From assembly GCA_902762795.1 (NCBI GenBank), contig CACWPM010000001.1, positions 62,001-126,000 on the forward strand: a stretch of 64,000 nucleotides of DNA, given 5' to 3'. Source of the DNA: Fibrobacter succinogenes (GTDB taxonomy: Bacteria; Fibrobacterota; Fibrobacteria; Fibrobacterales; Fibrobacteraceae). Below are positions 3,695 through 60,671 of the stretch, one piece after another. Numbering within the stretch: the first letter of the stretch is position 1; every line of letters starts with the position of its first letter. Both the position numbers and the translations under genes were made by a program. Under the pieces are notes generated by a model. It was not told the DNA's origin. It did not search any database and saw only the letters and a program-made list of their open reading frames with translations.

Positions 3695-3990
3695 GGGCTT
3701 GATATTTATAATATATACCTTTTTTGAAAATTTTTCGCTATCATTCAATGAAATAAATGCATATCAAGCCCAAAACACCCTACAACGAGGGTGTTTTGGG
3801 AATATTCTCTATGGTAATCGCCTTACCGGTCGCTGCGCTCTTCGAGCGATAGACATTACACTCGATTATGCGCTAGCCTTCGGTTTGCGCGCGACGCTCG
3901 CCTTACCACTCGCTGCGCTCTTCGAGCGCAAGACTTTGCGGCTCGGTCATGAAAACAAGCAAGCTTGTTTTCGCGACGCTCGCCTTACCA
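3695..3990. repeat. Mosaic of nested palindromes and CGCCTTACC repeats
   Basis: This gap holds no gene. GGGCTTGATAT (3695-3705) is inverted at 3761-3771. A perfect 12-bp hairpin follows (CCCAAAACACCC 3769-3780 with GGGTGTTTTGGG 3789-3800). A CGCCTTACC...CGCTGCGCTCTTCGAGCG unit occurs at 3818-3848 and again at 3898-3928, and its first part returns at 3981-3989. A 10-bp palindrome GAAAACAAGC/GCTTGTTTTC lies at 3951-3972. The third CGCCTTACC contains the stop codon of the next gene, so the repeats reach into coding sequence. Confidence 0.8.
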
Positions 3991-4785
3991 GTCTTTAGCG
4001 GGTCTTACTTGACCACGGACGGGTTTCCAGGGTTTGCGTTCGCCGTTCTGTTCGTCAAAGTCCTTGAGGAGCTGTGCCGCTTCTTCTGGACTCAACTCAC
4101 CAGGCGCAAGCGGTTGCTGTTCAGGCTCACCGCCATTACTGTCACTGGAATTTCCTTCGGACTGTTCAGGCTGTTGCGGCTGTTCGCCGGCACCGCCATT
4201 GCTATCGGAACTATCGCCACCTTGGCTACTGCTGGACTGGCCGTTCTGACCTTGATTCTGTTGATCCTGTTTTTGGTCATTCTGGGCACTAGAGGAACTC
4301 TGGTCGCCATTTTGGTTCTGGTTTTGATCTTGATTCTGCTGATCCTGATTTTGCTTATCCTGGTTCTGCTGATCTTTATTCTGGTCTTGGTTTTGCTTGT
4401 CCTGATTCTGATCCTGGTTTTGGTCCTGGTTATTCTGGTCTTGATTTTGGTCGTTCTTAGGATCGTTCTTCTTGTTCTCGTTCTTTTGCTCGTCCTTCGC
4501 TTCGTGAATGCGGTCGAGGAGCATCTGCAACTTTTGATCGTTCGGATAATACTGCAAGCCTTCGTTGCAAGTGATTTCGGCTGTCGGCAAACGGTTTTCG
4601 ATGTACTGGAAAGCGGCATCGCCATAATAGGCAGAAGCCGACTTCGGAGCTGCGAATGCTGAAATTGCACAAACCAATACAAAACCCAAAGCTACAGAGA
4701 TCCTTCGACTCCGCCTAACGGCTCCGCTCAGGATGACACAATTCTCTCGTCTTTCGTCTTTCGTCTTTCGTCTCAGCATAGCCAT
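3985..4785 (-). CDS. BatC-like exported TPR protein with Gln/Asn/Asp-rich tail
   Basis: This 266-residue protein has a signal peptide core around residues 29-45 (ISVALGFVLVCAISAFAA), one TPR-like segment (AAFQYIENRLPTAEITC...YPNDQKL), then about 100 residues made almost only of Gln, Asn, Asp, Lys and Ser, and a short C-terminal segment with ELSPEEAAQLLKDF. This order resembles BatC of the Bacteroides aerotolerance (Bat) operon. Its start codon overlaps the stop codon of the TPR gene before it (TAATG), so the two are translationally coupled. Residues 4-29 are encoded by an inserted heptamer array plus palindromic repeat (4699-4775), which makes an unusually basic n-region. No BatA, BatB or MoxR gene is in the window. 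Confidence 0.75.
   Translation of the reverse strand: MAMLRRKTKDERRENCVILSGAVRRSRRISVALGFVLVCAISAFAAPKSASAYYGDAAFQYIENRLPTAEITCNEGLQYYPNDQKLQMLLDRIHEAKDEQKNENKKNDPKNDQNQDQNNQDQNQDQNQDKQNQDQNKDQQNQDKQNQDQQNQDQNQNQNGDQSSSSAQNDQKQDQQNQGQNGQSSSSQGGDSSDSNGGAGEQPQQPEQSEGNSSDSNGGEPEQQPLAPGELSPEEAAQLLKDFDEQNGERKPWKPVRGQVRPAKDW
4699..4775. repeat. Composite element in frame inside a signal peptide
   Basis: Positions 4699-4737 are a GATCCTTCGAC...CAGGATGAC palindromic element. Positions 4748-4775 are four 7-base units: CGTCTTT three times, then CGTCTCA. Together they encode residues 4-29 of the BatC-like protein, between the start codon and the hydrophobic core of the signal peptide. A related 27-base GTCATCCTGAGC element is inside the gene at 59004-60671. 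Confidence 0.8.
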
Positions 4786-10163: not shown

Positions 10164-11294
10164 ATGCCCGATGCAAAGAGCATATCAACGAAAAACCATT
10201 CCATCGAACTCGTGAGGATTATCGCTTGCCTATTGGTAATCATGGCTCATAGCCAAATCGGCATTGTTGAAAACAACGCCATTGTCAGTGGAAGGCTTGC
10301 CTTATCGACATCTATCGCGGACGACGTTCCGCTGTTTTTGCTGGTGACAGGATTCTTTTTCTTTGGACGTATCAAGTCCGACACAGACATCATCACGACA
10401 TTTCCCTACAAGGCAAAATCGTTCCTTTCCCGTGTTTACATTCCGACGATTGTCTACATTCTAATTAGCATACTTTACCGATACTTCACGGCTTCGACAC
10501 CACTTGCATCCATTGGGGATGCAGACTGGAATTATCTGGGACGTTTCATTTTCAGGCTCGCTCCGGGGGATCATCTATGGTACATTTGTACATACATGTC
10601 ATTCATTTTCTTTTTCCCGATGCTTGCTTTTGTCTGCCAGGACGAACCGGGAAAGAACAAATTAAGAAGGATACTTTTAGGTATAGCCATCGGAGGAGCC
10701 GTGATTGGCGATGTCCAATATTTCTTCAAGATGACCATGATCGACATTGACAAATTTCTTTGGGGATACTGCACTATCTTTTTAATTATCGGATACGAGC
10801 TTTCGCTATTCGTTCGAAATTTTGACGGCAAGCAAAAGAAGCTTTTTGTGGCGGGTTCCGTCCTGTACTTAATCGGCTTTTTCATAAAGTTCGGGTTGCA
10901 AAATTACATGTTCACTGAATATGGATACGTAAACAACCGTTTCCGCTGGCTCCAATGCTCGCCATGCTTTGTAACGGCAACAGGGCTATTCATCACTGTA
11001 TATGCGCTTGGGACATGGATCAAGCAAAAAAGCATTCCGTCGCGTATCATCAACTTTGTCGGTTCGTGCACGTTTGCAATCTACCTTTTCCACATGTTGG
11101 TTGTCTCGGAAACGGGAAAATGGCGAGGAACCCTTCTGGAACATTTAGAAGGCGCAAGGACTTTCTTTGACGCCTTCGCTTATTACGTTTCCTACTCCCT
11201 TGCTGTTTTCAGCATCACGTTAGTGATTTCAATCGTATTTAAATACGTTGTCGAAATTCCGGTGGGAAAGATCTTTAGCAGAAAAGCGCCTTGA
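10164..11294 (+). CDS. Acyltransferase 3 family membrane protein (divergent partner)
   Basis: This 376-residue protein has about ten membrane helices and the family layout: an SIELVRIIACLLVIMAHSQ segment with the conserved His, VPLFLLVTGFFFF, and CTFAIYLFHMLVV near the C-terminus. A strong ribosome site, AAAGGAG, lies 10 bases before the ATG. It is transcribed away from the other acyltransferase gene from a shared 117-base gap. Its last 20 bases overlap the 3' end of the aminopeptidase gene on the opposite strand. Substrate unknown. Confidence 0.88.
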   Translation: MPDAKSISTKNHSIELVRIIACLLVIMAHSQIGIVENNAIVSGRLALSTSIADDVPLFLLVTGFFFFGRIKSDTDIITTFPYKAKSFLSRVYIPTIVYILISILYRYFTASTPLASIGDADWNYLGRFIFRLAPGDHLWYICTYMSFIFFFPMLAFVCQDEPGKNKLRRILLGIAIGGAVIGDVQYFFKMTMIDIDKFLWGYCTIFLIIGYELSLFVRNFDGKQKKLFVAGSVLYLIGFFIKFGLQNYMFTEYGYVNNRFRWLQCSPCFVTATGLFITVYALGTWIKQKSIPSRIINFVGSCTFAIYLFHMLVVSETGKWRGTLLEHLEGARTFFDAFAYYVSYSLAVFSITLVISIVFKYVVEIPVGKIFSRKAP

Positions 11295-12612
11295 CAAGTT
11301 TAATCATATCTTCATGGTCGCTTGCAGCCATCATCTCACGGATGCTGTGCATACTGAGCATGGGCTCGCCAATATCGACCGTCGGGATTCCGAGATTTGC
11401 TGAAACCGTCGGGCCAACCGTACTGCCACACGGCATGTCGTTCCGCGTAATGAATACTTGAAGCGGGATACCCGCCTTTTCGCAAAGCAGACGAAGCCTC
11501 GCAGAGCTCATGAGATCGCTTGCATAACGTTTTTGAGAGTTTGTCTTGAGTACAATGCCCTTGCCCAACAGCGGCGCATGATTCGGTTCGTGCTTTTCCG
11601 TGTGGTTCGGATGTTCGGCATGGGCCATGTCGATGGACAAAGCAATGCTTGACGAGAGACGAGAGGCGAGAGAGATTGCTTCGGCGTTGCCTCGCAATGA
11701 CGTAGGAGCCGAGTGCAGCAAACAATCCTGCTTGTTCATTGCCGGGGCGAACCCGTCATACGCCATGCGCAATGACGCACTCGCTTCATCCAGCACGCTC
11801 TGCAAGAAGTTGCCGACGGCTCCTTCGCGAGTTGTGGAACCGACTTCTTCGTTATTGAAGAAGCATGCGACATTAAAATCGTTATCGGAAGCATCCGTCG
11901 ACGCAATCGCTTCGGCAATCGCATGGCAGCCGCTCAAGTTGTCAAGCCTTCCCGAATAGATCCAATCATCGTTAAAACCGCCTCGATTGGCTGGCTGAGC
12001 ATCAAAGAGTTGCACATCAAAATCCACAAGACGTGCGCCTGCCGGAAGTTCCTTTTCAAGCGCCGTCACAAACAAATTTTTCCCATTTTCCGAAGCCCCA
12101 CACCACAAAGCATTGAAATCTATTTGCGGATTCAACTTGAGTCCATCTTGATTCACGCCCCGGTTCAAATGAACCGCCAATTGCGGAAACCTGAAAAATT
12201 TTTTTCCCCGGATTAACTTTGTCTTAAGCGTCATCGACTTGTCCGCAGTATCCACGTACGCAAGCATTCCCGCATAGCCGAGATCGCGGTCAAGCCAGCT
12301 CGTAAAAAGCGGCGAACCGTAAACCTCCGTATGAAGCGTACATACACCTGCACGGGTCTCGTCCGGATTCGGGGAAATCTTGAGTGTCGGAAAATCCGTA
12401 TGCGCAAGCGCAATCCGGAACTTCGAAGCGTCGCTCCACTTTTTCGGCGTACGGAAAGCAATCAAGGACGCCCCGCGAACCACAAAATAGGCTTTGCAAG
12501 GTTCCAGATTTCCATCAAATTCCGCAAAAGAATTTGCCCTAAAGTGTGATTTAAGACAATCTACCGTGTGATACGGCGTTACGGCTGTATTCAAAAAATC
12601 AAAAAAATCCAT
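11275..12612 (-). CDS. M18-family (aspartyl) aminopeptidase with an in-frame repeat insertion
   Basis: This 445-residue protein has the M18 metal ligands: HTD at 71-73, GRLDNLSG around 221-228, NNEEVGS with the Glu pair at 255-256, and DMAHAEHPN at 328-336. It should remove acidic N-terminal residues from peptides in the cytoplasm with two metal ions. Residues about 301-322 (SAPTSLRGNAEAIS and LASRLSS) are encoded by a palindromic element plus heptad repeats and lie just before DMAHA, where family members usually have a short loop. GAGGAA precedes the ATG. Its 3' end overlaps the convergent acyltransferase gene. Confidence 0.9.
   Translation of the reverse strand: MDFFDFLNTAVTPYHTVDCLKSHFRANSFAEFDGNLEPCKAYFVVRGASLIAFRTPKKWSDASKFRIALAHTDFPTLKISPNPDETRAGVCTLHTEVYGSPLFTSWLDRDLGYAGMLAYVDTADKSMTLKTKLIRGKKFFRFPQLAVHLNRGVNQDGLKLNPQIDFNALWCGASENGKNLFVTALEKELPAGARLVDFDVQLFDAQPANRGGFNDDWIYSGRLDNLSGCHAIAEAIASTDASDNDFNVACFFNNEEVGSTTREGAVGNFLQSVLDEASASLRMAYDGFAPAMNKQDCLLHSAPTSLRGNAEAISLASRLSSSIALSIDMAHAEHPNHTEKHEPNHAPLLGKGIVLKTNSQKRYASDLMSSARLRLLCEKAGIPLQVFITRNDMPCGSTVGPTVSANLGIPTVDIGEPMLSMHSIREMMAASDHEDMIKLVKALFC
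11651..11702. repeat. Composite element in frame inside the aminopeptidase gene
   Basis: Three 7-base units (GACGAGA, GACGAGA, GGCGAGA, 11651-11671) abut AGATTGCTTCGGC...CTCGCAATGACG (11673-11702), a GTCATTGCGAG-type palindrome. Both are translated in frame. The order, heptads beside palindrome, is the same as at 4699-4775. Confidence 0.8.
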
Positions 12613-13671: not shown

Positions 13672-14441
13672 CGAAGGCGTTGAAAATAGCCCTTTATGTA
13701 GCGCTTAGCGGAACAGTAGCTTTCGCCTCGGAATCCGGGAAGCTTGCCGCACGCGCACAGAAATCCATCAAGGCAGGGAATTTCGCCAAGGGCTATTCGC
13801 AACTCGAGCGCGCTCTTATTGCAAGCCGCAAAGAAGCGGACAGACGTTCTGAAGGCCGCATTATGATCGCCATGGGTCAAGTCCGCACGATGAGCCTAGA
13901 CTACAGCATGGCCGACTCGCTCCTGAATTATGTCCAGAACGAAGGCATGGACCGCTCGACAAGAATAATGCTCGTCAAGGCGAAAATGGCTTTGAAAAAT
14001 GCAACCGAAAAATACTCGGACGCCATATCGCTTTGCGAAAACGTCAAGGAAGACGACCTTGACGGAATAGAAGACAACCTGCAAGGGACATTCTATTCAG
14101 AATGCGCTATCGCTTACGCAGGCGCCCACAACGACGAGAAAGCCAAACAGGCGCTGAAGATGGTCGGCAAGCGCACCGACGACGATACGGGAATTTACTA
14201 CTGGACGGACGCACGCTTAGCAGACCTGCAAAAGTCCGGCGATGCCGACGCTATTTACCGCAAGGCGGAAACCGAATCCGTCAAGTCAAATACACCCTAC
14301 ACAACGGCAAACATTCTCTACCACCGCGGGAAGTTCCTGGAAAAGTCCAACCCGTCCGAAGCACGCAAGGTGCTTGACCGTTGCAAAACCGCATTCGAGC
14401 TCATGGGACTGCCAAAGAACGCAGAAAGATGCGAGCGTTAG
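13665..14441 (+). CDS. Exported helical-repeat protein coupled to the MCE gene
   Basis: About 258 residues with a signal peptide (MVTKALKIALYVALSGTVAFA) and a series of TPR-like helical pairs (KSIKAGNFAKGYSQLERAL; EARKVLDRCKTAFELMG). The ATG at 13665 lies inside the end of the MCE gene, so the two are translationally coupled. The protein is probably periplasmic and could help lipid transport, but that is inference from position. Its TAG stop codon runs directly into heptamer array B. Confidence 0.75.
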   Translation: MVTKALKIALYVALSGTVAFASESGKLAARAQKSIKAGNFAKGYSQLERALIASRKEADRRSEGRIMIAMGQVRTMSLDYSMADSLLNYVQNEGMDRSTRIMLVKAKMALKNATEKYSDAISLCENVKEDDLDGIEDNLQGTFYSECAIAYAGAHNDEKAKQALKMVGKRTDDDTGIYYWTDARLADLQKSGDADAIYRKAETESVKSNTPYTTANILYHRGKFLEKSNPSEARKVLDRCKTAFELMGLPKNAERCER

Positions 14442-14475
14442 TTATTAGTCACTAGTTATTAGTTAATAGTTACTA
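14441..14475. repeat. Heptamer tandem array B
   Basis: Five 7-base units in phase: GTTATTA, GTCACTA, GTTATTA, GTTAATA, GTTACTA. The first base is the last base of the stop codon of the preceding gene. A GTCAT-type fragment with GCGATGCCGGGCATTCC follows at 14499-14530. Confidence 0.88.
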
Positions 14476-14578
14476 GAGTATTGCTATTAAAAAAATTGCG
14501 ATGCCGGGCATTCCGGCCACCATGTCGGAATCGGCATTTTATTCGCTGACATCCATTTTTCTTTTGTAAGAAAGAAAT

Positions 14579-17242: not shown

Positions 17243-17319
17243 GTTGGCAGTTGGCAGAACTTAGAACTTAGAAAACTAAGTTCTAAGAGCGAAGCGAGCT
17301 AAGTTCTAAGTTCTAAATT
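17243..17319. repeat. Heptamer tandem array C with inverted halves
   Basis: Eleven 7-base steps in phase, beginning GTTGGCA, GTTGGCA, GAACTTA, GAACTTA and ending CTAAGTT, CTAAGTT, CTAAATT. The GAACTTA units of the left half are the reverse complement of the right half, so 57-71 and 99-113 (of the 17200s and 17300s) could pair as a roughly 15-bp stem. The stop codon of pyrF (TAG, 17313-17315) lies inside the array. Confidence 0.85.
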
Positions 17320-29909: not shown

Positions 29910-29951
29910 TTGGTTAGTAGACAGTAGGAAGTAGGCGGTAGGAAGTAGGAA
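29910..29951. repeat. Heptamer tandem array E
   Basis: Six 7-base units in phase: TTGGTTA, GTAGACA, GTAGGAA, GTAGGCG, GTAGGAA, GTAGGAA. Same unit family as arrays F, G, H and I. Confidence 0.9.
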
Positions 29952-29960
29952 GGGAATACT

Positions 29961-31357: not shown

Positions 31358-31526
31358 ATGCCGCAATGGTTCGGCAGGCTCACCAACCTTAATGCGGCAT
31401 GACAAAGCAACAGGAACATGTATGACAAAGCCCGCGCGGTGGCGGGCATGACAATGCTCTGGATCCCCTCCCTGACGGTCGAGAATGACGTTGCCCCCGA
31501 AACAAAAGGCCGGGATGACAATGCCG
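31358..31526. repeat. Run of GTCAT-type palindromic elements
   Basis: Five copies of an ATGAC(A/G) core (at 31399, 31422, 31448, 31485 and 31515) follow one another, several preceded by GCGGC, GGCGGGC or CCGGG blocks. On the minus strand they read TGTCATCCCGG, CGTCATTCTCGACC, TGTCATGCCCGCC and so on. ATGCCGCA (31358-31365) and TGCGGCAT (31393-31400) are an 8-bp inverted pair. The run ends at the 3' end of the DinG gene. No gene is seen in 31282-31530. Confidence 0.65.
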
Positions 31527-43004: not shown

Positions 43005-43080
43005 GTAGACCGTAGGAAGTAGGAAGTAGAAAGAAAAAATTACTAGTTATTAGTTACTGGTCAATAGTAGCTAGTTACTA
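43005..43080. repeat. Heptamer tandem array F (longest)
   Basis: Two runs of different units. The left run is GTAGACC, GTAGGAA, GTAGGAA, GTAGAAA, GAAAAAA. After a six-base step the right run is GTTATTA, GTTACTG, GTCAATA, GTAGCTA, GTTACTA. The left run matches arrays E and H, the right run matches array B. It fills the gap between the M6-like and LolB-like genes. Confidence 0.9.
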
Positions 43081-43133
43081 GAAAATGAGTATTTGGACGG
43101 AAAACGCACGGGAGACGCGCCAATGCCGAAAAT

Positions 43134-59003: not shown

Positions 59004-60671
59004 TTACAATAGCGCGTTTTTGAGCATGCGTTCTTCGACTTCGAAGGCGCTTGGCTTGTCATTAGGCGTCAAACGCGGGCCGGTGCCGTAGAGGTGGCGC
59101 ATCATCTCGAACAACGTGTATTCGCGGTCAAAATAGCCGATGTCCGGATTAGGGCAAATCGTGACCGGATCGCCGGTTCGTGCAGGCCGAGAACCGCGTG
59201 CTACCGCAACGCATTCCGGCTGGTAATGAATCGAGGGGCTCTTTTCGCGGATTTCTTCACGGCCTGCGTTTCCAAGAAAACGGCAGATGCACTCTCGCTC
59301 TAAAGTTTCACGGCGAAGCATGTCATACTTCGCACGGATTTCGTCCACTGTCATCCTGAGCGAAGTCGAAGGATCTAGTGCGGCATGCGACTCCATTTCT
59401 TCCTTTTCCAATTCGTCGATTTCCGCCAATCGGTGCATCACGTATTCGCGGGAAGCCATGCACACCGGATGATCAAAGCCGGGTATCGGTCGGCAAAGGT
59501 AATGCTGACGGCACGGAAAACCCGGTTTCAATTCAGGATTGCCAGACTTTTCACTTTGCGGTCTAAAATACTCTTGAACTTTTTTACGACAAAGTTCTGC
59601 CGCTGTGGATATCCGCAAGTTTATAAACGGAAATCCTAGCGGTGACGCATGGCTTATATAAACATCATCCGGAGTCGCCGAGATGAGCAATCGCCGCGTT
59701 TCCTTATCGACGCTTGTCGCCTGCGGCACAAGCAAAAAAGGAGTCCCGACCCCAACGCCGTCAATCCCAAGCGACATGATTTTTTCGATATCTTCGGGAG
59801 AACAAAGCCCACCCTGTGCAGTTATCCGCGCAGGAGAAGAAGGCGGAACACATCCTGCTTTTGCAATCATCGCGCGCGTAGTTTCGAACAACTCTTCGCG
59901 TCTTTCGATAAATTCACGAACAACATCGAGTAATAATTTCTTGGTTTCAAAAAACGCATGACCGCCGCAGTTCACGCCAGACTCAATGCGATATTCATAG
60001 ACTTCCAACCCCTTCTTTGCCAAATAGCGTCCCTGAATAAGCGCGGAACGATAATCCGAAACTTTCAAGATAATCTTCTTTTTCGGGGAACATGCGCTCG
60101 TCCTATAGAAGTCCTTACATTTTGCGATTTCTTCAAACACAGACAAGTTCACACCAGCGCTTAACACAAGCGCACCCGATACTTTGGATGCTGCAAAGCC
60201 TCGAACGGCGTCAAACGCAGCCTCCTCATGATTCAAGCCAACCATGATGTTCGCCTGAATTCCGCCCGGTTCCATTTTTCCGGTAAGCGAAGCCTCGGCC
60301 GCAATCCGCGCAATCCCTGTCTTCGACATTACACGATCGTATTCCACACGGAGACAAGAATCCTGCGGAAGCATCAAAAAATAAAGGTCCTTGTCACTAC
60401 CGCCATCAAAACGTTCCGCACAAAGTCTCGTAAACTTACGTTCTACTTCATCTGCAACAAAGTCAAGATACGAACGAATGCGACCAATGCGGGTTGTCTG
60501 CGGAGAGCCCAAATCAAGACCCAATCGTTCCGCATAAGCTAGGCGGTATTCTTCGAGGAGGCCATCGTCCACAAGCGAAATCACGGACGTAATCCCCAGA
60601 TGCGCTACACGAATCGGCGTATCCGCCGTATAGCAAATGCCCATCACCGGGATGTGTATTTTATGAACCAT
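59004..60671 (-). CDS. Nitronate monooxygenase-like FMN protein
   Basis: The start is set at MVHKIHIPVMG, with GAGGG just before it. The 555-residue protein has a TIM-barrel of the NMO/2-nitropropane dioxygenase type: IPVMGICYTADTPIRVAHLG, YEYRIESGVNCGGHAF, ARITAQGGLCSPEDIEKIM and GIDGVGVGTPFLLV. Cysteines after the barrel (FPCRQHYLCRP; HPVCMAS; ERECICRF) could bind a metal or cluster. The substrate is unknown; this long form is not the classical nitronate enzyme. Residues encoded by 59350-59376 (LDPSTSLRMT) come from an inserted GTCATCCTGAGC element. Confidence 0.8.
   Translation of the reverse strand: MVHKIHIPVMGICYTADTPIRVAHLGITSVISLVDDGLLEEYRLAYAERLGLDLGSPQTTRIGRIRSYLDFVADEVERKFTRLCAERFDGGSDKDLYFLMLPQDSCLRVEYDRVMSKTGIARIAAEASLTGKMEPGGIQANIMVGLNHEEAAFDAVRGFAASKVSGALVLSAGVNLSVFEEIAKCKDFYRTSACSPKKKIILKVSDYRSALIQGRYLAKKGLEVYEYRIESGVNCGGHAFFETKKLLLDVVREFIERREELFETTRAMIAKAGCVPPSSPARITAQGGLCSPEDIEKIMSLGIDGVGVGTPFLLVPQATSVDKETRRLLISATPDDVYISHASPLGFPFINLRISTAAELCRKKVQEYFRPQSEKSGNPELKPGFPCRQHYLCRPIPGFDHPVCMASREYVMHRLAEIDELEKEEMESHAALDPSTSLRMTVDEIRAKYDMLRRETLERECICRFLGNAGREEIREKSPSIHYQPECVAVARGSRPARTGDPVTICPNPDIGYFDREYTLFEMMRHLYGTGPRLTPNDKPSAFEVEERMLKNALL
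59350..59376. repeat. GTCATCCTGAGC palindromic element in frame inside a gene
   Basis: The 27-base GTCATCCTGAGCGAAG...GAAGGATCT segment is translated as nine codons (DPSTSLRMT region) between two charged helices of the NMO-like protein. Its ends ATCCT and AGGAT are inverted. From memory, the same peptide shows up in many unrelated hypothetical proteins. Confidence 0.8.

Follow-up and report, generated by a model that had tools for sequence, protein, structure and literature searches.

The window analysed here, a 64,000-nucleotide stretch of Fibrobacter succinogenes DNA, carries on its minus strand, at 11275-12612, an intact open frame of 445 amino acids that encodes an aminopeptidase of the M18 family. 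The product scored over the cut-off of the NCBIfam profile NF002759 (E 5.6e-132), matched the Pfam M18 profile along the full length of the frame (E 4.5e-104) and gave an AlphaFold model resembling solved M18 structures (Z about 34), so that it belongs to this family by curated score, by conserved motifs and by fold. Three heptads and an adjoining palindrome at 11651-11702 are read in frame as residues ~304-321 (SLRGNAEAISLASRLSSS), directly ahead of the DMAHAEHPN motif; the earlier note had described this arrangement, and its positions, the frame and the intact M18 gene were confirmed.

The palindrome, GATTGCTTCGGCGTTGCCTCGCAATGACG at 11674-11702, reads on the minus strand as CGTC plus ATTGCGAG..GAAGCAATC, that is, CGTC ATTGC GAG GCAACGCC GAA GCAAT C, with a folding energy of -4.5 kcal/mol (z -1.25). 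Its motif, GTCATTGCGAG, occurs in 46 copies in the 3.9-Mb genome, compared with 2 for the reversed motif. All 30 copies tested carried a CGTC/TGTC tag (the preceding base was C in 25 and T in 5), and the first base of the tail was C in the 21 copies scored, with CCA in 5 and CTA in 7. The copies measure mostly 21-36 nt, some 55-56 nt, and their stem is AT-first but interrupted, the norm for CGTC-tagged REPs being 20-40 bp with a stem of 8-9 bp, a loop of 4-5 nt, a CGTC, TGTC or CCTC tag left unpaired at one end and a short, mostly CCA tail; an inner-stem test on hairpin A gave mixed results. By its tag and AT-first stem the element can be grouped, on sequence grounds, with the CGTC-tagged REPs, which its tail and stem length fit in part. 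The hairpin noted previously is real; it corresponds, however, to the last ~28 bases of a longer repeat, a 104-bp unit (11674-11777, minus strand) that consists of a second hairpin, CGTCATTGCGCATGGCGTATGACG, about 50 bp and then the REP hairpin. Relatives of this unit with 71-82 % identity were found at C12:96282 and C4:94067 and, as partial matches, at C17:24918, C24:25039 and C32:12843. Within the phylum the hairpin motif has a patchy distribution, such as mobile DNA would be expected to show; eight genomes from a single genus had 84, 0, 0, 0, 1, 19, 91 and 61 copies. Elsewhere in the window, a further copy of the GTCATCCTGAGC hairpin lies at 59349-59378 (plus strand), in frame within a minus-strand ORF of 589 aa that had no Pfam match, and a TGGTTCGGCAGGCTCACCAACC-type repeat, whose family is also present in the M18 loops of L007 and L093, lies at 31367-31394, outside ORFs of at least 100 aa. 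At three loci on contig C19 of the same genome (L051, L052 and L053), CGTCATTGCGAG hairpins have been taken into poly-serine stretches of long open frames.

The hypervariable loop of the M18 enzyme (residues 276-315; 11668-11787, minus strand) was delimited by the variation of the segment between REGA and HPN, by a structural gap and by low pLDDT values. Aligned with solved M18 enzymes, the sequence loses its match after residue 275 and regains it at 316, a stretch for which the Pseudomonas enzyme has 9 residues. The heptads, GACGAGA-GACGAGA-GGCGAGA at 11651-11671 (plus strand), code for residues ~314-321, which align without gaps to native sequence of distant relatives, e.g. SLAALARSHLVSADMAHA in other class members, and coincide with the native LxxLxxS positions of M18. 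The heptads thus rewrite native positions, and it is the hairpin unit that adds length: only about 30 residues upstream of the heptad-coded part (residues ~276-310) are extra with respect to other M18 proteins. Hence, the earlier view of a strain-specific insertion where M18 enzymes have a short loop, to be checked by alignment and abandoned if the segment were conserved in distant phyla, applies to one part of the segment only. The loop in which the insert sits is indeed short in solved enzymes, and residues ~276-310 are species-specific and extra, whereas the heptad-coded residues fill columns that distant enzymes also have. In the AlphaFold model a helix spans residues 268-285, pLDDT falls below 50 at 291-310, and a short helix follows at 315-320; the extra residues are accordingly modelled as disordered, and from this disorder the loop would be expected at the protein surface.

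The heptads are a family separate from the hairpin. Four arrays occur in the window as opposed to none in 20 first-order Markov simulations of it, and a heptad 19-mer, with one mismatch allowed, gave 127 overlapping matches in the genome vs 0 for the control. An inverted TYTCGTC partner was found within 200 bp of GACGARA arrays on the 3' side in 17 of 47 cases and on the 5' side in 1 (p 1.4e-4), and the copies with both ends (about 70-180 bp) finish in TCGTCTGTAG-hairpin-CGTTCTYTCGTCT. The intergenic heptads are the inward-pointing ends of an element of ~70-180 bp built around a GTAG-tagged hairpin, whose right end, TCGTCTGTAG-hairpin-CGTTCTYTCGTC, has 38 genome copies vs 0 for the reversed control. 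Stems of at least 4 bp were present in 70 % of 63 inserts, compared with 6 % after shuffling; the stem is kept while its sequence varies. Among the 167 phylum genomes searched, the right end was detected in most Fibrobacter genomes and in a second genus belonging to the same family, and was absent elsewhere. The full intergenic right end of the F. succinogenes genome is matched by the M18 loops of L142, L021 and L101 over 45-46 nt at 91-93 %, and the plain heptads of the F. succinogenes gene are probably a collapsed end of the same element. Arrays with other units (CTAAGTT, AGTAGGA, GTAGGAA and TAGTTAC), which share the unit length of 7, lie at 17299-17319, 29916-29952, 43012-43081 and 14439-14476. 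In addition, at L047, L050 and L076 of this genome, hairpins or heptads are located at or just 5' of the start codons of apparent secreted-protein or lipoprotein genes.

The M18 gene was present in 80/80 genomes of the genus, and we read 81 M18 genes, 76 from the genus (about 75 Fibrobacter species) and 5 from other genera. The segment from REGA to HPN ranged from 37 to 75 aa, and across these species the loop DNA contains at least seven repeat types: CGTCATTGCGAG hairpins (the F. succinogenes gene and L093); CTTCGAC..GCTCAGGATGAC hairpins (L004, L006, L092, L101); GTCATCCTGGAGGGGC..GATAGGATCC (L002, L003, L091, L092, L096); GGTTGGTGAGCCTGTCGAACC (L007, L093); AGCGAGCTTGCGAGCG (L005, L098, L102, L103, L105); TCTCGTC heptads with or without the GTAG hairpin (L021, L130, L142 and others); and CCGAATT heptads (eight genes), a type without a match in the F. 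succinogenes genome. Between L095 and L097 the difference is exactly three heptads (21 nt). On an M18 tree from which the loop had been left out, at least 2-9 changes of state were required for each type of repeat. Dispersed repeats elsewhere in the F. succinogenes genome were matched by 27 of the 81 loops (E<0.01) vs 1 shuffled loop, in a BLAST pool enriched for repeat-bearing loci. A second loop with repeat families of the M18 loop is that of truB, where it measures 45-92 aa and is near-empty in L264; in the F. succinogenes TruB the profile match is broken in two around the insert. Hairpins were also read in frame in other long ORFs, namely topB (two loops), CobA-HemD, a U32 peptidase, a GSCFA protein, a siroheme-decarboxylase-like protein and a double ABC ATPase.

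A resident RAYT or IS200 enzyme was rejected as the mobiliser. With the RAYT profile NF047646, none of the 80 genus genomes, some of them incomplete, gave a hit over the cut-off, the only matches being IS200-like, and most genus genomes had no Y1 transposase match. An IS200-like Y1 transposase is encoded at G000:C1:614-970, on the same contig as the window. A known RNA family was likewise discarded as the identity of the repeats, as the search of the window gave only a tRNA.

The analysis establishes the identity of the repeats, their reading frame, loops that differ by species, two gene hotspots and low order in the structural model. Very probably, the M18 segment is what small non-autonomous repeats left behind when several of them inserted, one after another, into a single tolerant loop. 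The 104-bp unit ending in the CGTC-tagged REP hairpin would have come to adjoin a heptad array that is itself probably all that collapse has left of one end of a further element, a GTAG-REP bounded by heptads, with slippage between heptads as the presumed cause of the collapse. We assume insertion to be undirected, with no known target choice, and selection would retain only those inserts that preserve the frame at places where ~30 disordered residues, presumably neutral, do no harm; selection for frame and tolerance would in turn lead the same loops (M18, truB, topB and others) to gather repeats again and again. The repeats are presumably mobile and could move by means of a transposase that acts in trans, through an RNA intermediate or by recombination.

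That the heptads travel with the hairpin as a single composite mobile unit, as the earlier note had argued from the site at 4699-4775, is quite improbable. Heptad-palindrome pairings within 150 bp do exceed expectation (6 vs ~0.33 under uniform placement), and a GACGARA array lies just 5' of a hairpin in truB and at L067, L071, L081 and L276. Nevertheless, the hairpin at 4699-4738 (minus strand; TGTCATCCTGAG..GAAGGATC) belongs to a different REP-like family, with 53 genome copies vs 1 in the control and a CGTC/TGTC tag in 28/30; it lies in the ORF 3985-4785 before a signal-peptide-like stretch and adjoins TCTTTCG heptads identified by TRF at 4743-4774 (plus strand). The exact hairpin of the M18 site was within 60 bp of heptads in 1 of 41 arrays, the M18 array itself, and the 4699-4775 type was near heptads in 3; in the remaining 37, neither exact hairpin lay that close. 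A similar degree of clustering links the two hairpin families (4 vs 0.37 within 300 bp), as shared permissive sites would give, and sister M18 genes have hairpin and heptads in other combinations, some of their heptads lying beside no hairpin at all. The polarity between heptads and hairpin, 4 to 0, was not significant. Shared permissive sites account for the proximity of heptads and hairpins better than one composite unit; what holds of the mobile origin proposed earlier is that the residues derive from dispersed, presumably mobile repeats. In the minus-strand ORF 3985-4785, hairpin and heptads code for the first residues ahead of the signal-peptide-like stretch; its true start codon may be downstream, in which case both may be untranslated.

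Loops that are nearly identical occur on distant branches (types E and H; the 66-aa loop shared by L004 and L101), and loop exchange would explain this too, but it is unlikely that the diversity spread mainly by interspecies recombination of M18 from few original insertions, since nested combinations, the seven or more repeat types and the matching repeats of truB and unlinked genes would still call for many insertions. It is distinctly unlikely that the M18 and truB loops are preferred targets, with a resident heptad array attracting hairpins and a RAYT-independent process repeatedly rewriting loops of core enzymes. An adaptive loop, functionally diversified for assembly or partner binding with repeats as recruited raw material, would agree with its length in many species and its place beside the metal-binding motif; this is very unlikely, as its predicted order is low, its content is whichever repeat is common, and L132 keeps the M18 gene with a minimal loop of 37 aa. 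Finally, chance resemblance of low-complexity serine-rich codons to heptads and palindromes, which the coincidence with the LxxLxxS positions might suggest, is extremely unlikely: the similarity of the 104-bp unit to other places in the genome refutes it for the hairpin part, and M18 loops of other species match intergenic elements of the F. succinogenes genome over 45-46 nt at 91-93 %. Successive insertion into a tolerant loop is the reading we retain.

Short dispersed repeats within tandem heptamers reportedly occur in Nostoc. By description, the Fibrobacter repeats are like these (Elhai et al. 2008) in having small hairpins in or beside heptamer tandems and nested insertions, but they lie in a different phylum and at different sites. 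The superfamily of CGTC-tagged REPs includes Rickettsia RPE-4 and RPE-6 (Di Nocera et al. 2013, PMC3733652); that study, the main text of which does not name Fibrobacter, described REPs read in frame within genes of many species, truB among these genes, and CGTC-tagged REPs without a dedicated transposase. The Fibrobacter hairpins share with them the CGTC/TGTC tag, a stem opening with AT, tails mostly starting with C (CCA and CTA being frequent), high copy number, in-frame intragenic copies and, as far as the RAYT search of 80 genomes shows, the lack of a known dedicated transposase, whereas their stems are interrupted, their inner parts more variable and some copies have heptads beside them. 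Similarly to the GTAG-tagged REPs mobilised by RAYTs (REPINs; PMC3116915), the heptad element encloses GTAG and a short hairpin with many stem sequences; unlike them, it is flanked by TYTCGTC heptads and occurs in a genus of which 80 genomes gave no RAYT over the cut-off. Rickettsial palindromic elements (Ogata et al., reviewed in PMC2229807) are likewise in-frame repeats inside conserved enzymes, including truB; in Fibrobacter, by contrast, a single loop has taken up no fewer than seven unrelated repeat families across the genus. A literature search of partial coverage found no earlier report of such repeats in Fibrobacter.

In summary, intragenic REPs were already known, and what is new is that, within a single genus, many unrelated repeats have repeatedly used the same loop. 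Our work shows that intragenic REPs also occur in Fibrobacter, describes a GTAG-hairpin element that is bounded by heptads and lacks a RAYT over the cut-off, and warns that strain-specific loops of annotated enzymes can be repeat remnants. Furthermore, the M18 loop would represent a natural landing site for selfish DNA, and the natural series of about 75 versions of the enzyme, where unrelated dispersed DNA has rewritten a single loop, makes it possible to ask directly how proteins tolerate selfish repeats and whether such repeats ever become useful.
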